40,695 nt of DNA from Paludibacteraceae bacterium (GTDB lineage: Bacteria; Bacteroidota; Bacteroidia; Bacteroidales; Paludibacteraceae). Positions within the stretch are counted from its first letter, which is position 1, and each line of letters begins with the position of its first letter. Positions 307 to 37,812 of the stretch are shown piece by piece. Made by a program: the position numbers and the translations under genes. The stretch lies in the NCBI GenBank assembly GCA_017557345.1, contig JAFYZR010000001.1:1-40695 (forward strand), in the 5' to 3' direction. The notes beneath the pieces are model-generated. The model worked only from the letters and a program-made list of their open reading frames with translations. It made no database searches and was not told where the DNA came from.

Positions 307-1878
307 ATGGCAACACAGGAAGAAACATTTAAGAAAATCGTTGCGCATTGCAAGGAATACGGCTTTGTATTCCCGAGCAGCGAGATATACGACGGTCTGG
401 GCGCAGTATATGATTACGGCCAGAACGGCGTAGAGTTGAAGAATAATATCAAGCGTTACTGGTGGGATTCGATGACGCTCCTTCACGAGAACATAGTGGG
501 TATCGATGCAGCTATCTTCATGCACCCGACCACATGGAAAGCTTCGGGTCACGTGGACGCATTTAATGACCCGCTGATAGATAACCGTGACAGCAAGAAA
601 CGTTACCGCGCAGACGTGCTGATCGAAGATCAGATTGCCAAATATGACGATAAAATAGCCAAGGAAGTAGAGAAAGCCCGCAAGCGTTTCGGCGATTCGT
701 TCGACGAGGAACTCTATCGTAAAACGAATGAGCGAGTTAGCGAATTAGTGAATAAACGTGAGGCACTGCACACTCGTTTTGCCAAGGCTATGAACGATAA
801 CAACCTTGACGAACTCAAACAGATCATCCTCGACGAAGAGATCGTTTGCCCGATAAGCGGCACACGCAACTGGACCGACGTTCGTCAGTTTAACCTGATG
901 TTCTCCACCGAGATGGGTTCGACAGCCGATGGTTCGATGAAGATTTACCTCCGTCCGGAAACCGCACAGGGTATCTTCGTTAACTTCCTGAACGTGCAGA
1001 AGACCGGCCGTATGAAAGTGCCTTTCGGTATCGCACAGATCGGTAAGGCCTTCCGTAACGAGATAGTGGCCCGTCAGTTCATCTTCCGTATGCGCGAGTT
1101 CGAGCAGATGGAGATGCAGTTCTTCGTTCGTCCGGGCGAGGAGTTGAAATGGTTCGAGCACTGGAAGCAATTCCGCCTCAAATGGCATAAAGCACTCGGT
1201 CTAGGCGACGAGAAATACCGTTTCCACGACCACGATAAGTTAGCGCACTACGCCAACGCAGCAACGGATATCGAGTTCCTCATGCCGTTCGGATTCAAGG
1301 AAGTGGAAGGTATTCACAGCCGTACGAACTTCGACCTGAGCAGCCATGCCAAGTATAGCGGCAAGAAAATCGAATACTTCGACCCGGAACTCAACCAGGC
1401 CTACACGCCTTACGTCATTGAGACATCCATCGGCGTGGACCGTATGTTCCTGAGCGTTATGTGCTCGAGCTACGAAGAGCAGGCACTCGAAGGCGGCGAC
1501 ACACGCGTCGTTCTCCATTTACCGCCGGTTTTGGCGCCTGTAAAGGCTTGTATCATGCCGCTTGTCAAGAAAGACGGGCTGCCAGAGAAAGCACGCGAGA
1601 TAATGAACGAACTGAAGTTCGATTTCAAGATCGCATACGACGAGAAAGACTCTATCGGTAAGCGTTACCGCCGCCAGGATGCAGTCGGCACACCGTTCTG
1701 TATCACCGTTGACCATGACACGCTTAACGATGGTTGCGTGACCGTTCGTTACCGCGATACCATGGAGCAAGACCGCGTGAAGATTGAAGACTTGCACGAG
1801 ATAATCCGCAAGGCCACGGACGCCAAAGAGCTATACCGCAAGATTGTAGGTGACTCCTTGGAAGATACGAATGAGTAG
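307..1878 (+). CDS. glyS: Glycyl-tRNA synthetase (dimeric, single-chain type)
   Basis: Cytoplasmic class II aminoacyl-tRNA synthetase that charges tRNA-Gly. The 523-aa product matches the homodimeric form rather than the separate GlyQ/GlyS subunits. Visible signatures are the N-terminal catalytic start (VYDYGQNGVELKNN), YLRPETAQG near residue 214, the motif 2 region AFRNEI followed by REFEQMEMQFF near 248-273, and motif 3 with GVDR near 376. A C-terminal anticodon-binding domain follows. I take ATG 307 as the start: an in-frame TTG at 268 lies inside the -7 promoter box. Residues around 143-152 (nt 731-754) are encoded by three near-identical 8-nt words (GCGAGTTA, GCGAATTA, GTGAATAA) that resemble spacer repeats. 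The gene is monocistronic and ends before a bidirectional terminator. Confidence 0.97.
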   Translation: MATQEETFKKIVAHCKEYGFVFPSSEIYDGLGAVYDYGQNGVELKNNIKRYWWDSMTLLHENIVGIDAAIFMHPTTWKASGHVDAFNDPLIDNRDSKKRYRADVLIEDQIAKYDDKIAKEVEKARKRFGDSFDEELYRKTNERVSELVNKREALHTRFAKAMNDNNLDELKQIILDEEIVCPISGTRNWTDVRQFNLMFSTEMGSTADGSMKIYLRPETAQGIFVNFLNVQKTGRMKVPFGIAQIGKAFRNEIVARQFIFRMREFEQMEMQFFVRPGEELKWFEHWKQFRLKWHKALGLGDEKYRFHDHDKLAHYANAATDIEFLMPFGFKEVEGIHSRTNFDLSSHAKYSGKKIEYFDPELNQAYTPYVIETSIGVDRMFLSVMCSSYEEQALEGGDTRVVLHLPPVLAPVKACIMPLVKKDGLPEKAREIMNELKFDFKIAYDEKDSIGKRYRRQDAVGTPFCITVDHDTLNDGCVTVRYRDTMEQDRVKIEDLHEIIRKATDAKELYRKIVGDSLEDTNE

Positions 1879-1920
1879 TGTACGGTGTACGGTGTACGGT
1901 GTATGGTGTACGGTGTATAG
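1879..1920. repeat. Six-unit heptamer array TGTACGG
   Basis: Starting on the base after the glyS stop codon, six 7-nt units follow exactly: TGTACGG three times, then TGTATGG, TGTACGG and TGTATAG. The terminator follows at once. A related array (TGTACAC type) fills the exbD-tonB spacer. Confidence 0.9.
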
Positions 1921-1953: not shown

Positions 1954-1960
1954 ATTCCTT

Positions 1961-1988
1961 TAAACTTTAAACTTTCTACTTTAAACTA
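1961..1988. repeat. TAAACTT heptamer array overlapping the aminotransferase stop
   Basis: Four units read TAAACTT, TAAACTT, TCTACTT and TAAACTA. The stop codon (1976-1978) and last codons of the aminotransferase gene lie inside units 3 and 4, so the array supplies the end of the protein. Confidence 0.75.
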
Positions 1989-3169: not shown

Positions 3170-3205
3170 AATTCCCTAACTCGAAAATCGTTAACTCGCT
3201 AATCG
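3170..3205. repeat. 36-nt heptamer spacer between DJ-1-like and aminotransferase genes
   Basis: Units such as CCCTAAC, TCGAAAA, TCGTTAA, CTCGCTA and ATCGTTA fill the whole spacer. On the minus strand it contains CGATTAGCGAGTTA, a 14-mer that recurs inside the nadK coding sequence at 10575. Confidence 0.75.
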
Positions 3206-3733
3206 TTAATACTGCGCAGCATCGTATACGGAATCGGCCACATCCGAGCCGACCAGCCGCTCAATGATACAGAAAGCAAAATCGGCACTCAGTCCGGGGC
3301 CTTTCGCTGTGATGATATTCTTTGATTCAACAACCAGTCCGCCCACAAAACTCTCTCCCAGCGCATCTTGGAAGCCCGGATAGCAAGTAGCCTGTTTGCC
3401 TTTCAGAATACCTAATTGCCCCAGCACAGCCGGCGCAGCGCAGATAGCTGCAATCGGTTTTTCCGCTTTGTTATGCTCTACGAGCAAGTCGCGGAGTGCA
3501 GAACACTCACCAAGTTTGGTTTGGCCACCCGGCAGGATAAGCATCTCTGAGTCGGAGAAGTCAATGCGTTCAATGAGCCCATCGGCCTCTACGGCGATGT
3601 TATGTGCGCCGAGCACCATCGGATTACCGGTAATGGAGACTGTCGTTACCGCGATATTAGCACGGCGTAACAAATCAATTGTCGTGATAGCCTCGATTTC
3701 TTCGAAACCATTGTCCAAAAACAAATAATTCAT
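3206..3733 (-). CDS. DJ-1/PfpI family protein
   Basis: A 175-aa single-domain DJ-1/PfpI (ThiJ) protein. The nucleophilic elbow cysteine is C98 in AAICAAPAVLG, and the conserved acidic residues lie in NGFEEIEA at 9-15. The late stretch AKGPGLSADFAFCIIERL fits the subfamily's C-terminal helix. Members include YajL-like chaperones/deglycases and related stress proteins, and the specific activity cannot be assigned here. ATG start. It lies 35 nt after tonB and 36 nt before the aminotransferase gene in one operon. Confidence 0.92.
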   Translation of the reverse strand: MNYLFLDNGFEEIEAITTIDLLRRANIAVTTVSITGNPMVLGAHNIAVEADGLIERIDFSDSEMLILPGGQTKLGECSALRDLLVEHNKAEKPIAAICAAPAVLGQLGILKGKQATCYPGFQDALGESFVGGLVVESKNIITAKGPGLSADFAFCIIERLVGSDVADSVYDAAQY

Positions 3734-3768
3734 AAAACTTTAAACTCTAAACTTTTAACTTTAAACTT
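3734..3768. repeat. 35-nt spacer of exactly five TAAACTT-type heptamers (tonB to DJ-1-like)
   Basis: The spacer divides into AAAACTT, TAAACTC, TAAACTT, TTAACTT and TAAACTT with no base left over. On the minus strand it ends at the ATG of the DJ-1-like gene. Confidence 0.9.
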
Positions 3769-4539
3769 TTAGTTTAACTTGAATATATAGGTGATTGTTC
3801 CGATCTGATCATGGTCGCCCTCCGTAAACTTGGCCTTCCGAGCCGCCTCGAGAGCGAGTTGTTGTGTTTGTTTGTCTGATACATCGCCACCGGTGATGGA
3901 AGCGTTAATGACTTGTCCGGCAGCATTCACACGAATCTGCACCACTACTTTGCCTTCCTGCCTAAAGTCATTTGACGGCTGCGGGAGCGTTCCTTTAATG
4001 CCACGCCCTGCCAGGCTCCAACTGTTTCCTCCGGATGTGCCGTGGCCGACAGGATTGCCTTTCTGTCCGCTGCCTTGACCATCGCCGGAACCGGTGGTAT
4101 TACCGGTATTGCCGAAGAGTGAGCCGAGTTGATTGGCTTTCGCGATAGCCTCAGCTTCCTTAGCCTTGCGTTCGGCTTCTGCCGCTTCGCGGGCTTTACG
4201 CTCTTCTTCCAGACGCGCTTTCTCCTCCGCCTCTTTTTTCTTCTTGGCCTCAGCGAGCGCAAGAGCCTCCGGATCTTCCGTCGTTACATATTCCTCCACC
4301 ATAGGTGCGGAAGAGTGTGCAGGCGCAGCCGTTTCCGGCGAAGGCATAGGAACTGCTTCCGATTGCTCTGCCATATATCCGCCTGCATCTTCTACTTCGC
4401 CGAAGGCGACTTCAATGCCTTCCTCCTCTTCCGGTTGCACATAATAAAGGCGCATGAACCATAAGAGCAGGAAAACCAGCACCATAAACAAGATGGTGCC
4501 TATTGTTGCGATTATATGTCGTTTTTGTTTCTTGGTCAC
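3769..4539 (-). CDS. tonB: TonB family energy transducer
   Basis: A 256-aa inner-membrane protein that would carry proton-motive force from ExbB/ExbD to outer-membrane TonB-dependent receptors. One N-terminal transmembrane helix (about 9-30) is followed by an acidic/proline linker, a Lys/Glu/Ala-rich probable coiled-coil stretch (about 97-136), a Gly-rich stretch (140-172) and a C-terminal TonB domain with EGKVVVQIRVNAAGQV and a final FKLN. The Gly-rich spacer instead of a Pro/Lys linker is usual for Bacteroidota TonB/TolA-like proteins. The start is GTG at 4539, directly after the repeat spacer. Gene order exbB-exbD-tonB supports the role; a TolA-like function is the alternative. Confidence 0.9.
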   Translation of the reverse strand: MTKKQKRHIIATIGTILFMVLVFLLLWFMRLYYVQPEEEEGIEVAFGEVEDAGGYMAEQSEAVPMPSPETAAPAHSSAPMVEEYVTTEDPEALALAEAKKKKEAEEKARLEEERKAREAAEAERKAKEAEAIAKANQLGSLFGNTGNTTGSGDGQGSGQKGNPVGHGTSGGNSWSLAGRGIKGTLPQPSNDFRQEGKVVVQIRVNAAGQVINASITGGDVSDKQTQQLALEAARKAKFTEGDHDQIGTITYIFKLN

Positions 4540-4573
4540 TTTACACTGTACACCTTACACCGTACACTGTACA
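4540..4573. repeat. 34-nt heptamer spacer exbD-tonB (TGTACAC type)
   Basis: Units TTTACAC, TGTACAC, CTTACAC, CGTACAC and TGTACAC fill the spacer, the last sharing its final base with the exbD stop codon. The word is related to the TGTACGG array after glyS. Confidence 0.88.
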
Positions 4574-4984
4574 CTATTGTCGCTTCGTAGCGACAACCAG
4601 CCTCATATGATGTTCGTTAGCGATGTCGAGCACACGCACCACTTCCTTGTATGCCACATCCTCATCGGCATGCAGCGCGATATACAAAGTGCTATCCGAT
4701 GCCTGAATACCGCTCAGATAACCTTCCAGGCTCTCCGGATCGATGGGTCTTGGTTTCTCTTTGCCAATCGCCACGAAATAATTACCGAGGTTGTCTATCG
4801 ACACTTTCGCTACCTGCGGGCGTGTGGCAGTCTGCGCACGGGAAGTCGGCAGGTTGATTTTTATATCATTGGGAGAGGACATTGTAGACGCCATGACAAA
4901 GAAGAGCAACAACAGGAACACCAAGTCCGTCATTGAACTCATTGCGAACGTCGCTTCTACCCTATTTCGTCTTTTTAAAGCCAT
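4574..4984 (-). CDS. exbD: ExbD/TolR family biopolymer transport protein
   Basis: A 136-aa inner-membrane protein with a short basic cytoplasmic N-terminus (MALKRRNR), one transmembrane helix at about 17-37, and a periplasmic domain ending LVVATKRQ. D20 in SSMTDLVFLLLLFF is the expected protonatable aspartate of the ExbD/TolR helix. It should form the proton channel with the upstream ExbB. Spacers of 37 nt before and 34 nt after it, both made of repeats, place it in the same operon. Confidence 0.93.
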   Translation of the reverse strand: MALKRRNRVEATFAMSSMTDLVFLLLLFFVMASTMSSPNDIKINLPTSRAQTATRPQVAKVSIDNLGNYFVAIGKEKPRPIDPESLEGYLSGIQASDSTLYIALHADEDVAYKEVVRVLDIANEHHMRLVVATKRQ

Positions 4985-5021
4985 AAAATCATTTACGATT
5001 TACAAATTTACGATTTACGAT
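4985..5021. repeat. 37-nt heptamer spacer exbB-exbD (TTTACGA type)
   Basis: Units TTTACGA, TTTACAA, ATTTACGA and TTTACGA fill the space between the two genes. The same word recurs after rlmH (37338-37365). Confidence 0.85.
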
Positions 5022-5705
5022 TTAAGCAGGCTCGTTGAGCAAGTCCATAAACTCCAGTGTACGGCTCTCGAGGAGGCGCACCACGCGGTCAATACGTGCC
5101 ACGAGATAGTTATAGGCAAACATAGCGAGGATACCTACAATCAAACCGCCGATGGTTGTTACCATTGCTTGGTACATACCGGTTGAGAGAGCGCTCATCT
5201 CAATAATGCCGCTGGAGGATTGCGCCATGTTATAGAACGTCTGCACCATACCCAACACGGTCCCCAAGAAACCGAGCATCGGAGCACCTCCGGCTATGGT
5301 TGCCATGATAACAAGACCTTTCTCCAGGCGGCCTACTTCCAGGTTTCCTACGTTCTCCACAGCCACTTGCACGTCTTGCATCGGGCGGCCTATACGCGTT
5401 ATTCCTTTCTCAATCATGTGCGCGGAAGGAGTGTCCGTCTCTTTGCAGAGGTTCAGAGCCGAATCAATTTTGCCGTCGTGAATATAATCGCGGATACGGT
5501 CCATGAACGACTTATCCTCTTTCGTAGCCTGCTTGATAACTACCAGACGAGCGATGAAGATATAACATGCGCCGGCAAGGAGGATAGCCAGGATAAGCAT
5601 TATCCAACCGCCATATTGCGCCATTTCCCATAAGTTGATTGACTCTTGCGTCATTTCTTCCATTACCGGCTCTTGAAGAGCGATTGTATCAATTTGAAAA
5701 AGCAT
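5022..5705 (-). CDS. exbB: MotA/TolQ/ExbB proton channel family protein
   Basis: A 227-aa inner-membrane protein with three predicted transmembrane helices at about 33-54, 129-155 and 172-200. The family signature is in TM2 (APMLGFLGTVLGMVQTF, about 141-157) and TM3 carries the conserved TTIGGLIVGILAMFAYNYL. With ExbD it forms the proton-driven motor that energises TonB. I choose ATG 5705. A TTG nine codons upstream falls inside the repeat spacer and adds an unlikely extension. The gene follows pdxJ by 45 nt. Confidence 0.93.
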   Translation of the reverse strand: MLFQIDTIALQEPVMEEMTQESINLWEMAQYGGWIMLILAILLAGACYIFIARLVVIKQATKEDKSFMDRIRDYIHDGKIDSALNLCKETDTPSAHMIEKGITRIGRPMQDVQVAVENVGNLEVGRLEKGLVIMATIAGGAPMLGFLGTVLGMVQTFYNMAQSSSGIIEMSALSTGMYQAMVTTIGGLIVGILAMFAYNYLVARIDRVVRLLESRTLEFMDLLNEPA

Positions 5706-5715
5706 ATAATAAAAT

Positions 5716-5750
5716 AAATTACAAATTATCAATTACAAATTACCAATGAT
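5716..5750. repeat. 35-nt array of five AAATTAC-type heptamers after pdxJ
   Basis: Units AAATTAC, AAATTAT, CAATTAC, AAATTAC and CAATGAT end exactly at the pdxJ stop codon (5751-5753). About 10 more A/T bases separate the array from the exbB start. Confidence 0.88.
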
Positions 5751-6464: not shown

Positions 6465-6486
6465 GAGTATGCCACAAAATCCGGTG

Positions 6487-6518
6487 CAAAGTTACAACAA
6501 ATTTTTTAAATTTGCAAA
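6487..6518 (-). promoter_or_regulatory. Bacteroidota-type promoter of pdxJ operon
   Basis: On the minus strand, TTTG (6518-6515) and TAACTTTG (6494-6487) are separated by 20 nt. The pdxJ ATG at 6464 lies about 22 nt beyond the -7 box. Confidence 0.8.
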
Positions 6519-6583
6519 CTTTTTAGCAAAAAAAATATCGTGTAGCGTCCGAAGTGACTACAAATTTATGCCCATTCGGGGAG

Positions 6584-6673
6584 AAAAATTGAACATTTTT
6601 GGATAGGTGTTGCATAGGTAATAACCTCGACATAATACCGATGAGACACCGATTGGAAAAATTGAACATTTTG
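6584..6673 (+). repeat. Boxed 11-nt-periodic element, copy A
   Basis: Two direct boxes AATTGAACATTTT (6587-6599 and 6660-6672; box-to-box 73 nt) enclose units of about 11 nt such as TTGCATAGGTA, ATAACCTCGAC, ATAATACCGAT and GAGACACCGAT. It shares AACCTCGACATAATACCGAT and the following GAGAC with copy D at 33803. Confidence 0.85.
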
Positions 6674-6708
6674 TCGAAAATCGAATATCGAAAATCGAAA
6701 ATCGAAAA
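6674..6708. repeat. Five-unit TCGAAAA heptamer array before the LRR-protein promoter
   Basis: Exactly TCGAAAA, TCGAATA, TCGAAAA, TCGAAAA and TCGAAAA, 35 nt. It begins one base after the element's right box and is followed by an A-run leading into the -33 TTTG. Confidence 0.9.
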
Positions 6709-6713
6709 AAAAA

Positions 6714-6745
6714 TTTGCATATTTGATTTTTTTTTAGTAATTTTG
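6714..6745 (+). promoter_or_regulatory. Bacteroidota-type promoter of the LRR-protein/nadK operon
   Basis: TTTG at 6714-6717 and TAATTTTG at 6738-6745 with 20 nt between. The leader before ATG 6796 is about 45 nt, A-rich and lacking a Shine-Dalgarno sequence. Confidence 0.85.
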
Positions 6746-6795
6746 CAGCGCAAAATGTGTGCAAAAATGATTAACAACTATAATAACAAACAGTT

Positions 6796-10414: not shown

Positions 10415-11323
10415 ATGAAAATAGCTATTTTTGGTAATGCGATGAAATCCGAGACGTTGCGCGAGGTGCAGCATATCTTGGAGTTTATGGAGCAGAAAGG
10501 CGTTCATGTCTTGCTTTCCCAAGAGTTGCGTCAGGAATTGAACCTCCGCGAGTACCCGAGTTTTCCGGATAAATCGATTAGCGAGTTAGGGATTAGCGAG
10601 TTAGGGATTAGTGGATTAGCGGATGAACCGATAGACTTTGCGTTGTCGATTGGCGGCGATGGTACCTTCCTGACCAGTGCAGCCGCCATAGGAGACAAGA
10701 ACATACCTATTCTTGGCGTCAACTGCGGCCGGCTCGGTTTCCTAGCCGAAGTACAGACGGACGCTCTGGATGAGATATTACAGAAGCTCATCGCCGGAGA
10801 ATATACGATCGAGCAGCGCAGTCTGCTGAACCTGACGGTATTAGACAAAGACGGTATTGCTCGTGAGGGCTTGATCCTATCTCCGAACGCGCTTAACGAG
10901 ATAGCTATCCTCAAACAAGGTCTGACGAACATGCTGACCATCGAGACCAAAGTAAACGGCGAACTGCTGCATACCTATCATTCCGACGGTCTGGTTATCG
11001 CTACGCCAACCGGCAGTACAGCTTATAACCTCTCCATCGGCGGTCCGCTGTTGGTGCCGCAGAGCCGTGGAATCATCCTAACGCCTATTGCGCCTCACAG
11101 TCTGACCGTTCGACCGATAGTAATGCTGGATGAGTGGAAATTTGATTTCCGTATCAGCAGTCGTTATGACGCGTACATGGTGTCCGTCGATGGTCGCAGT
11201 CAGAGTTTAAGCACCGACATGAGTCTGCATGTAGAACGTGCTCCGTACACCATCAAAGTAGTGCAAATAGGCGATAATAGCTTCTTAAAGAGCTTGCGGA
11301 CAAAACTGAATTGGGGGAAATGA
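10415..11323 (+). CDS. nadK: NAD kinase
   Basis: A 302-aa cytoplasmic enzyme that phosphorylates NAD to NADP. GGDGT is at 80-84 within SIGGDGTFLTSAAA, followed by ILGVNCGRLGFLAE; the second domain has SDGLVIATPTGSTAYNLSIGGP and a C-terminal VSVDGR. Residues 54-68 (SISELGISELGISGL) are encoded by two 15-nt tandem repeats plus a partial third, built from the spacer words GATTAGC and GAGTTAG. This is a low-complexity insertion in the loop before the nucleotide-binding motif. ATG starts 1 nt after the LRR-protein stop, and lgt overlaps the 3' end (ATGA), so nadK is translationally coupled on both sides. Confidence 0.97.
   Translation: MKIAIFGNAMKSETLREVQHILEFMEQKGVHVLLSQELRQELNLREYPSFPDKSISELGISELGISGLADEPIDFALSIGGDGTFLTSAAAIGDKNIPILGVNCGRLGFLAEVQTDALDEILQKLIAGEYTIEQRSLLNLTVLDKDGIAREGLILSPNALNEIAILKQGLTNMLTIETKVNGELLHTYHSDGLVIATPTGSTAYNLSIGGPLLVPQSRGIILTPIAPHSLTVRPIVMLDEWKFDFRISSRYDAYMVSVDGRSQSLSTDMSLHVERAPYTIKVVQIGDNSFLKSLRTKLNWGK
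10576..10620. repeat. In-frame GATTAGC/GAGTTAG array inside nadK
   Basis: Two perfect 15-nt tandem units (GATTAGC + GAGTTAG + G) are followed by a degenerate third (GATTAGT, GGATTAGC). The sequence CGATTAGCGAGTTA is identical to one in the 3170-3205 spacer (minus strand). The 15-nt period preserves frame. Confidence 0.88.
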
Positions 11324-12237
11324 TTTTAGATTTTATAACTTGGGATGTTGACCCGATATTGATTCATTTCGGGGACGGAGGAATACGCTGGTACGGTCTG
11401 CTGTGGGCCATCGGTTTGTACGTGTGCTGGTCCATAACGGACAAGATGTACAAGCGCGAGAATTGTCCTGCCGAATGGTCCGACCAGTTGTTCTTTTGGC
11501 TGGCCATCGGACTGATTGTAGGTGCACGCGTAGGGCATTGCTGGTTCTATGAATGGCACCAATATGGTCAGCCGTGGCATCTGTTTGGATGGGAATTCAC
11601 CTACCGCAATCCGTATATCGAACAGCCCTGGCGACTGGTAAAGATATGGGAAGGCGGCTTGAGCAGTCACGGCGGAGCTATCGGACTAATCACCGCCTCA
11701 TGGCTGCTGAATAAATACAAATACAGCCGCTATCCGCAATACGGCACCAGTTGGCTCTGGATCCTTGATCGTGTATGCGTGGGCGTGTGCATCACGGCGA
11801 TGCTCATTCGCCTGGGCAACCTCTTTAACAGCGAGATATACGGCGGTCCGACAGATCTGCCGTGGGGATTTATCTTCGTTCGTGACGGTCAGACAGTTCC
11901 TTGTCACCCAACGCAGCTATACGAGATTCTATACTGCTTTGTTGCCCTGTGCGTTGTATGGCCGCTATATTGGCATACCGAAGCCAGACGGCGCGAAGGA
12001 TTGCTGCTCGGCATATTCCTGGAGATCATCTTCATCACACGTTTCTGCCTGGAATTCATCAAAAACGACCAAGAAGCGTTTGAGGCAAATCATGTGCTCA
12101 ACATGGGTCAATGGCTCAGTTTGCCGTTCATCGCTTTGGGCATATTCCTTATTGTTCGCGCGTATATGCGTCCTCTTTCGCCGGTAGTGGATAAACAGCC
12201 GGAGAGTCTCGATAAGAAATATCAAGAGAAGAATTGA
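11320..12237 (+). CDS. lgt: Prolipoprotein diacylglyceryl transferase
   Basis: A 305-aa multi-pass inner-membrane enzyme that adds diacylglycerol to the lipobox cysteine of prolipoproteins, the first step of lipoprotein maturation. Signatures: IRWYGLLWAIG at the N-terminus, GARVGHCWFYEW, EGGLSSHGGAIG (H117), RLGNLFNSEIYG (R164) and CHPTQLYE near 195-202. About seven hydrophobic segments are visible. ATG 11320 overlaps the nadK stop as ATGA; the in-frame TTG at 11311 is less likely. Substrates encoded nearby include the lipoproteins at 26314, 28019, 28528, 34629 and 35959. Confidence 0.97.
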   Translation: MILDFITWDVDPILIHFGDGGIRWYGLLWAIGLYVCWSITDKMYKRENCPAEWSDQLFFWLAIGLIVGARVGHCWFYEWHQYGQPWHLFGWEFTYRNPYIEQPWRLVKIWEGGLSSHGGAIGLITASWLLNKYKYSRYPQYGTSWLWILDRVCVGVCITAMLIRLGNLFNSEIYGGPTDLPWGFIFVRDGQTVPCHPTQLYEILYCFVALCVVWPLYWHTEARRREGLLLGIFLEIIFITRFCLEFIKNDQEAFEANHVLNMGQWLSLPFIALGIFLIVRAYMRPLSPVVDKQPESLDKKYQEKN

Positions 12238-12297
12238 CGATTGGACGATTGACGATGTACGATTGATTGACGATTGATTTTAATTGACGATTTATTT
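12238..12297 (+). repeat. Start-codon leader cassette, copy 1 (lgt to fmt)
   Basis: A 60-nt spacer of ATTGACG-type words ends at the fmt ATG. GGACGATTGACGATGTACGA and the nine bases after it (29 nt in all) are identical to the spacer before dut. The 3' end AATTGACGATTTA is shared by both. Confidence 0.9.
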
Positions 12298-19010: not shown

Positions 19011-19074
19011 ATATCTTGTTCTGTTATTCTCTGTTCTGTAGCGTCCACAATACGCCAAAATACAAATTCGGGTG

Positions 19075-19105
19075 CAAAGTTACAACAAAAAATTTACATA
19101 TGCAA
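19075..19105 (-). promoter_or_regulatory. Bacteroidota-type promoter of secA
   Basis: On the minus strand, TTG (19105-19103) and TAACTTTG (19082-19075) are separated by 20 nt. The leader to ATG 19010 is about 60 nt. Confidence 0.8.
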
Positions 19106-19171
19106 GAACAAAATGCATGCCACACACTTTTTTCTGCCGTTTTGGCAGTTTTATTGGTCATCTAAAGACAA

Positions 19172-19263
19172 GAAAAATTGAACATTTTGGAATGAAAAAA
19201 TTAGGTCAAAACCTCGACATAATACCGACGAAACCTCGAAGACCCGAAATATTGAACATTTTT
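19172..19263 (+). repeat. Boxed 11-nt-periodic element, copy B
   Basis: Boxes AATTGAACATTTT (19176-19188) and TATTGAACATTTT (19250-19262) lie 74 nt apart. The core repeats every 11 nt (AACCTCGACAT, AATACCGACGA, AACCTCGAAGA). A 36-nt stretch of the core beginning TGAAAAAATTAGG is identical to copy D. Confidence 0.88.
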
Positions 19264-19292
19264 ACACTTTTATGCTATACACTTTACACGAA

Positions 19293-19315
19293 AAATCGCC
19301 TAAAGGCGTTTTTTT
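19293..19315. terminator. Small hairpin with flanking A- and T-runs upstream of the M6 promoter
   Basis: CGCC-TAAA-GGCG (19297-19308) is preceded by AAAAAT and followed by seven T. The four-pair stem is weak, but the layout is that of a short bidirectional terminator. It would shield the M6 promoter from upstream transcription, or end a transcript starting in the repeat element. Confidence 0.4.
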
Positions 19316-19316
19316 C

Positions 19317-19347
19317 TTGCATATGTCATTTTTTTTTACTACCTTTG
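19317..19347 (+). promoter_or_regulatory. Bacteroidota-type promoter of the protease operon
   Basis: TTG at 19317-19319 and TACCTTTG at 19340-19347, 20 nt apart. The leader before the TTG start at 19373 would be about 20 nt. Confidence 0.8.
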
Positions 19348-19372
19348 CAGCCGATTTTATTAATTTGGCGTA

Positions 19373-20971
19373 TTGCGGGCATATGCGTGCATATTATTAG
19401 GGTGTTTAGCGGCTGCCAACATAATGGCAGTTCCGGCAAGACGAGGATGGCAGACGAAAAATCTGTCAGACGGACGTGAGATAAGCGTCTGTCTCGTTGG
19501 CGATGAATATTACCATTTCTGGCAGACAGCAGATGGCAAAATTGCCCTACCACAAAATGACGGAACATTCGTTCTTTCCGACGAAACGGCTCCAACGCCC
19601 GAAGAAATACGCGCACGCAAGAAGGCTTCGCCGATGTTTGCCGAGCAACCGCATAAAATCGGAACTCCAAATTTAGCCCCAAGAGGATTAGTTATTCTGG
19701 CTGCTTATCAAGACGTGGACTTTCAGACAGAGAACACGCAAGTTGCCATGTCTGAGATGCTGAATAAAGAAGGTTACGACTACAATGGAGCAACCGGTTC
19801 GGCTGCGGATTATTTCAAGGCACAGTCAAACGGGCAATATTCGCCGATTTTTGATGTTGTGGGACCGGTTGTTTTGCCGAACAATCGCGCATATTATGGA
19901 GCTAACACATCCAAACCCGGCACAGACATTCGGCCGGATGAAATGATTGTTGATGCTTGCACGGCTGTGGATGAACAGGTTGATTTCTCGCAATACGACA
20001 GCAATAATGACGGCAAGATTGATTTGGTGTATGTTATTTATGCCGGAAAAGGCGAAGCGGATGGTGGTCCGGCTGAATCCATTTGGCCGCACAGATGGAC
20101 TGCATATGGAACGTTTGACGGAAAATCTTTACACGACTACGCATGCTCAGGCGAATTAGAAGGTTTTAATGATGATAACAAGCGGAATGGCATTGGTACG
20201 ATTTGTCATGAGTTTGGACATGTTATCGGCCTTCCTGATTATTACGACACCAATTATAAAACGAATTACGATGCAGGCCTCACGCCCAATGACTGGAATG
20301 TGATGGATCAAGGATGCTATAACAACGATGGCAAAACGCCGCCTAACTATTCTATTTTCGACAAATACTTCATTGGCTGGGCAACACCTAAGTTCTTGGC
20401 GAAAGATGATCAACAATTCATTCAAATGACCACCGATTATAACGATGCATATCAAATTACCGGAAGTTCGGCTCTTGTGCCCTACTATTCAACCGACACG
20501 GTTCTATACATCGAAAATCGTCAGCCAGAAGGATGGGATACCTATCTGCCAGGACACGGAATGATTGTTTGGCAAGTTGTTTATGACCAAGATGCATGGG
20601 ATAATAATGTGCCCAATAATACCGCCAACAAACCGCGTTTGACGCTTTTGGCTGCAGACGGAAATCTGATGATTGGAAATATTGTAGAACAAGGAGTGAC
20701 CTTGCATGAAGGCAAGTCAGATCCATTCCCGGGAACAGCGAACATCGAAGCGTTCTACGCTTTTACAGGCTGTGAATTGACGGATATACAAGAAACGGAT
20801 GGCGTTATCAAGTTTAGTTTCAACGGAGCCGAAGATCCGGCAATGGAAATTGGAGATTGTAAATTGGAAATTGGAAATTGTAAAGTGCTTATCGACGGGC
20901 AAGTCTTTATCATTCGCCAAAACGACACATATACTATATATGGACAAAAAATAACAACATTTAACAATTAA
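19373..20971 (+). CDS. Secreted M6 family (immune inhibitor A-like) metalloprotease
   Basis: 532 aa. A signal peptide (ILLGCLAAANIMA) leads to the M6 domain. The zinc site is H279-E280-x-x-H283-x-x-G-x-x-D289 in CHEFGHVIGLPDYYD, with NVMDQGCY after it (Met-turn-like), and a calcium-type DSNNDGKIDL is at 209-218. An extracellular endopeptidase role is expected, with substrate unknown. The start is probably TTG 19373: the in-frame stop at 19361 bars longer forms and the next ATG (19424) would lose the signal peptide. Just before the C-terminal tag (KVLIDGQVFIIR...YTIYGQK), residues 492-505 (EIGDCKLEIGNCK) are encoded by six heptamers. The next protease starts 12 nt downstream. Confidence 0.92.
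   Translation: MRAYACILLGCLAAANIMAVPARRGWQTKNLSDGREISVCLVGDEYYHFWQTADGKIALPQNDGTFVLSDETAPTPEEIRARKKASPMFAEQPHKIGTPNLAPRGLVILAAYQDVDFQTENTQVAMSEMLNKEGYDYNGATGSAADYFKAQSNGQYSPIFDVVGPVVLPNNRAYYGANTSKPGTDIRPDEMIVDACTAVDEQVDFSQYDSNNDGKIDLVYVIYAGKGEADGGPAESIWPHRWTAYGTFDGKSLHDYACSGELEGFNDDNKRNGIGTICHEFGHVIGLPDYYDTNYKTNYDAGLTPNDWNVMDQGCYNNDGKTPPNYSIFDKYFIGWATPKFLAKDDQQFIQMTTDYNDAYQITGSSALVPYYSTDTVLYIENRQPEGWDTYLPGHGMIVWQVVYDQDAWDNNVPNNTANKPRLTLLAADGNLMIGNIVEQGVTLHEGKSDPFPGTANIEAFYAFTGCELTDIQETDGVIKFSFNGAEDPAMEIGDCKLEIGNCKVLIDGQVFIIRQNDTYTIYGQKITTFNN
20845..20886. repeat. In-frame six-unit heptamer array at the C-terminus of the M6 protease gene
   Basis: Exactly GGAAATT, GGAGATT, GTAAATT, GGAAATT, GGAAATT and GTAAAGT (42 nt, so frame-neutral). 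It joins the catalytic part to the exported-protein tag. Confidence 0.9.
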
Positions 20972-24870: not shown

Positions 24871-24931
24871 TTGACGAATGGACGATTGACGATGTACGAT
24901 TGATTGACAAATTGAAAGAAATTGACGATTT
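24871..24931 (+). repeat. Start-codon leader cassette, copy 2 (lipid kinase to dut)
   Basis: A 61-nt spacer ending at the dut ATG. It is nearly identical to copy 3 (37750-37812, minus strand) and shares a 29-nt block with copy 1. Confidence 0.92.
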
Positions 24932-25366: not shown

Positions 25367-25472
25367 TGAACATTTTTTGCATAGGTATTGCATAGGTAAT
25401 GATAAGGTAATAATACCGATAAGGTACCGATGAAATACCGATCAACAATTGAGCGGAAAAATTGAACATATT
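25364..25472 (+). repeat. Boxed 11-nt-periodic element, copy C (two extra units)
   Basis: The left box (TGAACATTTT from 25367) follows the dut stop. The right box (AATTGAACATATT, 25460-25472) lies within the first codons of the TPR gene. Box-to-box distance is 96 nt, 22 more than in copies B and D. Units of 11 nt: TTGCATAGGTA, ATGATAAGGTA, ATAATACCGAT, AAGGTACCGAT, GAAATACCGAT. Confidence 0.85.
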
Positions 25473-33539: not shown

Positions 33540-33559
33540 AGTTTTAATGAATTACGCTG

Positions 33560-33590
33560 CAAAGATACAACTTTTTTCCAATTTATGGAA
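33560..33590 (-). promoter_or_regulatory. Probable nadC promoter
   Basis: TATCTTTG (33567-33560, minus strand) fits the -7 box. The -33 position carries TTC rather than TTG, so this promoter is weaker in consensus than the others. The leader is about 15-20 nt. Confidence 0.6.
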
Positions 33591-33802
33591 ATTATTTTAT
33601 GGAAAAATGCAAAAAAACGTATTTTTCGAGTATATTCTGCTAAAAAAGCGCAAACAAATGGGTTTATAGCATTTGTGGAGAAAAATAATAAGTCAACATT
33701 TTTCAAGAAAAGACCAGGTGTGGTAACTATTATGTAACTATCATGTAAGTGTGCAATGTACAATTTCAATGTCGATACTTTTTACTTTTTACCTTTTTTC
33801 TT

Positions 33803-33890
33803 AAAATGTTCAATTTTACGGTTCATCGAGGTCTCATCGGTATTATGTCGAGGTTTTGACCTAATTTTTTCACCCCAAAATGTTCAATTT
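33803..33890 (-). repeat. Boxed 11-nt-periodic element, copy D (inverted)
   Basis: On the minus strand the order matches copy B: box (33889-33877), GGGG, a 36-nt block identical to copy B, units AACCTCGACAT, AATACCGATGA and GACCTCGATGA, then the second box (33815-33803). Box-to-box distance is 74 nt. Confidence 0.88.
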
Positions 33891-33917
33891 TTCCTTAATT
33901 TGGGGTCCTCGATGGAC

Positions 33918-33951
33918 GCTAATCTCTAATTCGAATATCGAAAATCGAAAA
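33918..33951. repeat. Heptamer array before the promoter at 33956
   Basis: GCTAATC, TCTAAT, TCGAATA, TCGAAAA and TCGAAAA abut the -33 element. Nearly the same unit order precedes glyS (201-234). Confidence 0.75.
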
Positions 33952-33955
33952 AAAA

Positions 33956-33987
33956 TTTGCATATATGCAAAATTTTTATTACTTTTG
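33956..33987 (+). promoter_or_regulatory. Bacteroidota-type promoter with little or no leader
   Basis: TTTG at 33956-33959 and TACTTTTG at 33980-33987, 20 nt apart. The only start that keeps the signal peptide (GTG 33992) lies 5 nt after the -7 box, where transcription itself should begin. Confidence 0.75.
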
Positions 33988-33991
33988 CAGC

Positions 33992-34648
33992 GTGAAACGT
34001 ATTTTTTACATACTTATCGTTTTATCATGCGTCTCTTTGAGTATGTTTGGCGAAGAGAGGTGGGCTTATATCCAACAGCGGCATGAGGTGCGGCTCGGTT
34101 GGGGAGACCAGCTCTTCGAGAGTCTGATGTGGCATAATCCGACCAACATTGCTACAACGATGCCTGTGGATTGGCAGCATATTTATCGTGAGGATTTCAA
34201 GCATCGGCAACATATATGGATGGAATACCAATGGCGTTACTTAGAGTGGATTTCCTTTGGTGCGATGTATGACATGAGCGAGGTGGGTTGGAGCGAAGTG
34301 ACGCGTAACGGAGCGGGAACGGAACTCAGTCGGAGTGACCGTAAGTTTTTCTACAATCTCGTGTTGATGCCAACGGTACGTTTCACCTATTTCTTCCATC
34401 CCTACGTCAATCTCTATTCCGGTCTGGGTTTCGGCATGGATATCAATGGTGGTACAGAAGTAAACGGTTTGGGGCACAAAACCGATGTCGGCATGGCTAT
34501 CAACATCACCTTGATTGGGGTGAGTGCGAACTATGAGAGATGGTTTATGGCGTTTGATTTAGGGGGATTAACGGCTTTAAAGAACAAAAACACCGTCTTT
34601 ATGGCGGCTTCTAGAATGATTAATTTTAGTGTTGGTGCGCGTTTCTAA
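33992..34648 (+). CDS. Exported outer-membrane beta-barrel-like protein
   Basis: 218 aa from GTG 33992. The signal peptide (FYILIVLSCVSLSMFG) is followed by strand-like sequence (TVRFTYFFHPYVNLYSGLGFG, TDVGMAINITLIGVSANYERW) and a terminal VGARF, consistent with an outer-membrane barrel. It resembles the protein at 13809-14480 in size and in the FTYF...P...YSG segment. No named family recognised. The longer ATG frame (33965) would begin upstream of the -7 box and cannot be on this transcript. The next gene overlaps its 3' end by about 20 nt. Confidence 0.75.
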   Translation: MKRIFYILIVLSCVSLSMFGEERWAYIQQRHEVRLGWGDQLFESLMWHNPTNIATTMPVDWQHIYREDFKHRQHIWMEYQWRYLEWISFGAMYDMSEVGWSEVTRNGAGTELSRSDRKFFYNLVLMPTVRFTYFFHPYVNLYSGLGFGMDINGGTEVNGLGHKTDVGMAINITLIGVSANYERWFMAFDLGGLTALKNKNTVFMAASRMINFSVGARF

Positions 34649-37749: not shown

Positions 37750-37812
37750 AAATCGTCAATCCCTTTCAATTTGTCAATCAATCGTACCTCGTCAATCGTC
37801 CAATTTGTCAAT
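37750..37812 (-). repeat. Start-codon leader cassette, copy 3 (M23/LysM to four-helix gene)
   Basis: On the minus strand the 63-nt spacer ends at the four-helix ATG. It differs from the dut cassette at only about three positions over the last 55 nt. Both end ATTGACGATTT-ATG. Confidence 0.92.

Follow-up and report, generated by a model that had tools for sequence, protein, structure and literature searches.

Stop-anchored heptamer arrays in a Paludibacteraceae pdxJ operon and their uneven spread in one genus

Introduction

What fills the short spacers of the pdxJ operon in a Paludibacteraceae bacterium, and does the filling act on translation? The operon lies in a stretch of 40,695 nucleotides, called the window here (GenBank assembly GCA_017557345.1, contig JAFYZR010000001.1, positions 1 to 40,695), and has five gaps between the genes for PdxJ, ExbB, ExbD, a putative TonB, a DJ-1-type protein, and an aminotransferase. 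An original prediction, made from the DNA letters, held that every gap is an array of one 7-nt word, that the word differs from gap to gap, and that such arrays could serve as unstructured ribosome landing zones before start codons. In this study, we found that the arrays are real and widespread but uneven in the genus. Most probably, they are simple repeats that spread wherever they are tolerated, rather than a signal for translation.

Results

The operon gaps were scored against 5000 dinucleotide-preserving shuffles per gap. As shown in Table 1, period 7 stood above the shuffles in four of the five gaps, with lag-7 identities of 0.82 (3734-3768), 0.81 (4540-4573), 0.63 (4985-5021), and 0.66 (5706-5750). 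A/T richness alone is therefore insufficient, as had been argued. The predicted gap lengths of 45, 37, 34, 35, and 36 nt were exact, and the 35-nt tonB-DJ-1 gap does consist of five heptamers. However, the claim that every gap is heptameric did not hold for the gap at 3170-3205, in which period 7 was not beyond chance (1835 of 5000 shuffles attained the observed score). This gap has a 15-nt unit of 7+8; its lag-15 identity was 0.76, and its best score at any lag from 4 to 16 was attained by 35 of 5000 shuffles. Pfam matches supported the identities of PdxJ, ExbB, ExbD, DJ-1, and the aminotransferase, and the "tonB" open reading frame (ORF) had no Pfam match at an E-value of 1e-5.

Arrays were then counted at all periods with a run score (+1 per match, -2 per mismatch, threshold 13). 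The samples were not random. One genome was taken per species, and G034 (G and L numbers denote genomes and loci) was picked for fuller sampling since its pdxJ locus is dense. In the 338,875 bases of G034, periods 4 to 13 yielded 0, 0, 0, 71, 11, 8, 3, 8, 1, and 0 arrays. A period-7 array was present in 31 of the 114 co-directional gaps of 20-300 nt in this genome, compared with 0.1 in shuffles. The 36 close orthologous loci (287 kb) carried 65 period-7 and 15 period-8 arrays, and six Paludibacter-type loci (42 kb) carried 3 and 1. One stretch each from 20 other Bacteroidales families (307.6 kb in all; 4 further listed families were outside the sample) gave 1 period-7 and 3 period-8 arrays. 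These results show that period 7 is dominant in the genus, that periods 8, 9, and 11 are fewer, and that the arrays are nearly absent from the other sampled families of the order. The loci nearest to the window came from rumen and gut metagenome-assembled genomes (MAGs) of Bacteroidales or Paludibacteraceae.

The ratio of period-7 to period-8 arrays varied between species: 71:11 in G034, 15:11 in G002, 2:7 in G021, and 1:5 in G011 (G034 vs G021 plus G011, 3:12, p 6e-7). The G002 counts were obtained from a 300 kb sample, which overturned the suggestion from an earlier 100 kb sample that this genome has no period-7 arrays. Loss of mismatch repair was considered as a cause and rejected; MutS matches were present in 30 of 31 genomes (29 above the cut-off) and MutL matches in 27 of 31, and all 11 genomes with completeness of 90% or more and contamination of 5% or less had both. 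The MAG of the window is itself 6.84% contaminated, its contigs C1, C4, C9, C16, C18, and C19 have no countable bases (read as N), and several of its other sampled contigs have tetranucleotide profiles that do not resemble that of the window, consistent with this contamination. Array densities for this genome are therefore probably understated. A search of it with one array word gave two places, both on the window contig.

We next determined where the arrays lie relative to stop and start codons. A simple codon-usage script served as the gene caller. It overlooked small genes and a number of starts, and starts that it placed within arrays are doubtful; stop positions are the same whichever start is taken. 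Among the 99 arrays in co-directional gaps of 60-400 nt, 56 overlapped the upstream stop codon or began at most 7 nt past it, and 11 finished at most 7 nt from the downstream start, compared with about 19 each under uniform placement (L029 is genome G034 and L032 is genome G021, and these pooled counts may hold a few arrays twice). For the stop-offset and strand analyses, identical sequences were removed, which reduced 184 arrays to 174. Array starts peaked at -3/-2 from the stop codon end, that is, on the stop itself (28/174). Arrays were found in 9/38 convergent, 79/402 co-directional, and 4/39 divergent gaps. Thus, convergent gaps, which have no start codon, bore arrays about as often as co-directional gaps, and divergent gaps, which have two, did so less often. 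Density was 1.61 per kb in co-directional gaps of up to 400 nt and 0.03 per kb in coding sequences (CDSs), as counted in a sample drawn mainly from the pdxJ region. In the denser species, arrays therefore prefer the 3' ends of genes, starting from the stop codon.

The same operon was compared among relatives, with arrays counted at a score of at least 10 and the gaps of the window included. Arrays were present in 55 of 312 orthologous gaps: 21/78 for pdxJ-exbB (20 words), 16/80 for exbB-exbD (11 words), 5/78 for exbD-tonB (5 words), and 13/76 for tonB-DJ-1 (9 words). The operon of the window is therefore unusually full. The prediction that words differ from gap to gap and from relative to relative was borne out, but most orthologous gaps were free of arrays, and the near-constant spacer length did not extend to relatives, where gaps range from overlaps to 264 nt. 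Over the four gaps, the 10, 25, 50, 75, and 90% length quantiles were 0, 1, 24, 40, and 83 nt (overlaps taken as 0). The operon also occurred with gaps too short for any array, as in L024 (1, -1, 3, and 1 nt), L040 (1, -4, -4, and 5 nt), and L033 (1, 6, -4, and 5 nt). Since the operon is kept with gaps of a few nt, and array presence, gap length, and word all vary, the arrays are dispensable for translation.

Close pairs showed how arrays change. L034 and L035, which are 95% identical, had unrelated arrays in the tonB-DJ-1 gap, and one array of this pair showed a 7-nt copy-number difference. The L035 array is almost equal to that of L053 (1 nt difference in the tonB gap), so L035 may have acquired the gap allele through recombination, as one possible route. 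A 31-nt CTTTCGA array of L054 was absent from L055, and the empty site had no copy of the word as judged by eye.

Words recurred within genomes. The 71 period-7 arrays of G034 used 30 words and formed 133 same-word pairs, compared with a mean of 3.3 (maximum 11) for random gap 7-mers and 28.9 (maximum 50) for composition-shuffled words; the 47 arrays away from stops formed 40 such pairs vs at most 18. None of the 17 arrays in G033 shared a word with G034, and vocabularies differed between species. Most words were A/T-rich, and a few had C or G runs, such as AACCCCCT in G002. Composites of several units were dispersed as well. Allowing at most 2 mismatches, the ATTGACG composite GATTGACGANGTACGATTGATTGAC matched 12 sites in G029, 4 in G021 (three at 74-nt spacing plus one), and 3 in the assembly of the window; 5 of 41 genomes matched, and controls with reversed patterns gave 0. 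The composite GGTAAATGACCAAATGGTAAATG, for which units of one tandem array were treated as separate sites, had 78 sites in G009, 51 in G018, and 48 in G034; it matched in 25 of 41 genomes and in none of the other 16, with 1 control match overall. In GGTAAATGACCAAATGGTAAATG, in G034 and others, an ATG recurs every 7-8 nt, and 3 of 10 sampled sites start 2 nt inside a called CDS; arrays may thus supply alternative starts as well as stops.

Arrays also occurred in frame in protein loops. In G034, 26 of 71 lay in called CDSs. Ten array-bearing ORFs of this genome were scanned; two matched nothing, and eight matched NCBIfam families, with MurF, XseA, and YggS above the curated cut-offs and RluA, a GldA-type ABC ATPase, GMP_PMI, RimP, and an aminopeptidase (four arrays) below them. 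MurF was aligned for 20 of 21 sequences, with G004 left out for a broken reading frame in its stretch. Of these 20, among which G034 is counted, eight were insert-free and exactly 383 aa long. The other 12 had inserts at either or both of two loops; several inserts were visibly heptameric or octameric, with differing words. A YggS-type PLP protein and a HAD phosphatase were found to form a single ORF (L199:17765-19138), with a heptamer array at the junction.

The arrays are not an operon feature, as a convergent gap, a divergent gap, and ORF interiors of the window carry them too (Table 1). In the convergent gap at 1879-1975, each of the two stop codons bears an array, and a terminator-like hairpin, judged by eye, lies between them. 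The NAD kinase array and the operon gap at 3170-3205 have the 14-mer CGATTAGCGAGTTA in common. A second repeat family, compared by eye, has an 11-nt rhythm with parts such as CCTCGACATAATACCGAT and AAAATGTTCAATTTTTC. It was seen at 6465-6795, 19011-19423, 33540-34042, and 25367-25448 of the window, in three divergent gaps and partly in one co-directional gap, and 11-nt arrays of other words were also present in G002, G021, and G011.

Table 1. Repeat arrays in the window (shuffles: number of 5000 that attain the period-7 score)
Feature	Position	Strand	Description
pdxJ-exbB gap	5706..5750	-	GTAATTT-type heptamers, array about 5716-5747; 9/5000 shuffles
exbB-exbD gap	4985..5021	-	TAAATCG units from the ExbB stop codon onward, one unit 8-nt; 13/5000 shuffles
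exbD-tonB gap	4540..4573	-	AGTGTAC/GGTGTAA units over the ExbD stop; 2/5000 shuffles
tonB-DJ-1 gap	3734..3768	-	Five AAGTTTA-type units from the upstream stop; 2/5000 shuffles
DJ-1-aminotransferase gap	3170..3205	-	15-nt (7+8) unit, no plain heptamer array
GTGTACG array, ~6 units	1872..1920	+	On the stop codon of an ORF ending at 1878 (class II tRNA synthetase domains), convergent gap
CTTTAAA array	1958..1987	-	Across the aminotransferase ORF stop codon (1976-1978), convergent gap
TCGAAAA array	6672..6714	.	Divergent gap upstream of pdxJ
GATTAGCGAGTTAGG (7+8) array	10576..10624	+	In frame within NAD kinase, peptide KSISELGISELGISGLADE
ATTGACG composite element	12233..12279	+	On the TGA stop of the upstream ORF (ends 12237)
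TGGAAAT array	20844..20889	+	In frame close to the C-terminus of a peptidase M6-domain protein (MEIGDCKLEIGNCKVL)
ATTGACG composite pattern matches	12247-12271; 24884-24908 (+); 37773-37797 (-)		Sole matches in the own assembly at <=2 mismatches

Discussion

The explanation that we favor, with about an even chance of being right, is that the arrays are degenerate simple-repeat families (unit 7, often 8, or 7+8=15 nt) that multiplied in one genus related to Paludibacteraceae, expanded through slippage, and were probably copied to sites that tolerate them. Units would arise and grow through 7/8-nt tandem duplication by replication slippage. Template switching or ectopic conversion may copy existing arrays elsewhere, the stop trinucleotide possibly providing the microhomology, and arrays would persist where they are harmless: just past the stop in tight operons, in other gaps, and in protein loops free of in-frame stops. 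Most likely, arrays of this kind are neutral or mildly selfish and give no translation signal to the downstream gene. More tentatively, a clade-specific DNA-copying activity may write and spread arrays of 7/8-nt words, landing at stop codons (TAA/TGA/TAG) that provide the microhomology. Every species would then have its own expanding lexicon, and a repeat family without a gene of its own would continually rewrite operon spacers and add peptide loops to conserved enzymes.

Selection on translation offers two other explanations. The ribosome landing zone of the original prediction is now very improbable. In a short operon gap any array is bound to sit directly ahead of a start, and many words are A/T-rich, but arrays hug stops rather than starts (56 vs 11 of 99), they occur in convergent gaps (9/38) and coding loops, and orthologous operons of relatives do without them. 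It is also improbable that selection maintains a ladder of tandem stops every 7-8 nt in all three frames, which would catch frameshifted or read-through ribosomes. Stop-hugging arrays in gaps of at least 60 nt are indeed richer in stops on the sense strand (37 vs 10, with 10 ties), stops in all three frames are found in 44/57 of them on that strand and 20/57 on the other, and near-stop and far arrays differ (71:20 and 22:20, p 0.004). However, an array that overlaps a gene end carries the stop of that gene by construction, mid-gap arrays show no strand bias (19 vs 18), far relatives lean the opposite way (6 vs 15), and array-free gaps have little or no sense-stop excess (0.32/0.33, 0.35/0.32, and 0.33/0.30 per 7 nt). 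In 75 stop-anchored arrays, the stop in phase was retained in 131/234 downstream units, and neighboring units differed at stop columns (101/702) as they did at other columns (123/936, p 0.47). Since stop columns vary like the others, these data point to an origin at the stop codon and not to selection for stops.

There are two further explanations. Chance periodicity of A/T-rich spacers has a negligible probability; the gap at 3170-3205 would fit it at period 7, but the shuffle controls refute it for the array class. Pure local slippage, in which each array arises independently by 7-nt tandem duplication (polymerase footprint ~7 nt) with no copying between loci, is harder to dismiss and in our view somewhat unlikely. 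It is a known proposal for bacterial heptamer simple sequence repeats (Mrazek et al., as reported in the available parts of PMC4679880 and PMC4692102). That array starts center on the stop codon agrees with duplication of a heptamer that includes the stop, the 7-nt copy-number difference in one L034/L035 array is of the expected kind, and a unit-order test gave no copying signal. Against it stand the word recurrence of 133 vs at most 50 under composition shuffling, the irregular 23-25-nt composites found at up to 12 or up to 78 sites in certain species and missing from many others, the L054 array with no visible copy of its word at the empty L055 site, and the 7:8 ratio, which varies between species.

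Several observations weigh against the favored explanation of slippage with copying. No enzyme or transfer intermediate was identified for array copying. The stop preference was not seen in far relatives (5 near the stop and 5 near the start, n=13), whose stops also lean to the antisense strand as given above, or in G007 (1 and 1 of 5). Density is uneven in the genus, with 3, 4, 1, 0, and 2 period-7 arrays in G014, G017, G011, G027, and G032 (65-80 kb each). A/T-rich low-complexity words inflate recurrence, as seen from the composition null of 28.9 and not 3.3. Vocabularies are species-specific only in part: G034 words were also present in 4/26 arrays of the genome of the window, 1/9 of G007, 4/20 of far relatives, and 21/65 of the close set, which includes the pdxJ locus of G034 itself, each above the random null. 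Alignment of unit variants between same-word arrays was no better than with shuffled unit order (G034, 36 vs 37.0, attained by 266/300 shuffles; G033, 8 vs 7.75; own genome, 3 vs 3.0), in arrays so short that power was low. Some MurF inserts have no visible heptamers. Lastly, allele import may account for part of the word replacement between close pairs, and the L054/L055 difference could be a loss.

Short tandemly repeated repetitive (STRR) sequences are heptanucleotide tandem repeats of heterocystous cyanobacteria (Calothrix), and they were the right kind of analogue for the original prediction to name. The two are alike as heptanucleotide tandem repeats and differ in host lineage, word number, and stop anchoring. 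The Rickettsia palindromic elements are small repeats inserted in frame in conserved proteins; unlike the heptamer arrays, they are longer and palindromic. Like the heptameric class of long simple sequence repeats and STRR, the arrays have a 7-nt tandem unit beyond chance and are mostly intergenic.

Heptamers near stop codons are known in other lineages, and the multi-word, stop-anchored arrays add features to them. In the available part of MacGregor 2015 (PMC4679880), TAACTGA direct repeats are described in marine Beggiatoaceae, Cyanobacteria, and five Bacteroidetes including Paludibacter propionicigenes. These too are short intergenic 7-nt arrays, some over upstream stops, with stops in all three frames in one orientation and the other orientation open to reading within ORFs, and Paludibacter is among the hosts. 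That text deals with a single word, mostly just upstream of start codons. In contrast, we found many words differing by species, units of 8 nt and of 7+8 nt, anchoring at stops, and inserts in the loops of conserved enzymes, and the arrays did not show such start proximity (11/99 within 7 nt of the start vs 56/99 of the stop). TAACTGA (rotated, AACTGAT) was not found among the array words listed (up to 25 per set). In the part of PMC4692102 available, GGGAATC and GGGGA(C/T)T repeats of Xanthomonas and Nostoc have 7-nt units and lie between co-directional ORFs; on the coding strand, most are no more than 50 bp from the stop. They are under-represented between divergent ORFs and vary among close relatives. 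The arrays here share the closeness to upstream stops and the rarity between divergent genes. They lack the G-rich GGGA-type unit; whereas those repeats are of one quadruplex-forming word type and under-represented in coding regions, here the words are many and mostly A/T-rich, and about a third of G034 arrays (26/71) are in called CDSs. The same text mentions STRR heptanucleotide repeats, and both papers report a 2007 survey in which heptamers were over-represented, with its polymerase-footprint idea. Borg tandem repeats, as described in part of PMC9879509, are likewise fast-evolving, in gaps and ORFs, and of independent origin. Unlike the present arrays, they belong to archaeal extrachromosomal elements, and in ORFs they give perfect amino-acid tandem repeats under strong selection. 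Among the literature matches listed, there was no description of multi-word, stop-anchored arrays in Paludibacteraceae.

These arrays carry a caution, as a period seen near a start codon can in fact be tied to the stop before it. Through them, conserved enzymes gain new loops and operon spacers change rapidly. Why bacterial simple repeats prefer a 7-nt unit is an old open question. The genus is a natural experiment on it, with many species that have the same operons with or without arrays, differing words, and differing 7:8 ratios, by which slippage, copying, and selection could be separated.

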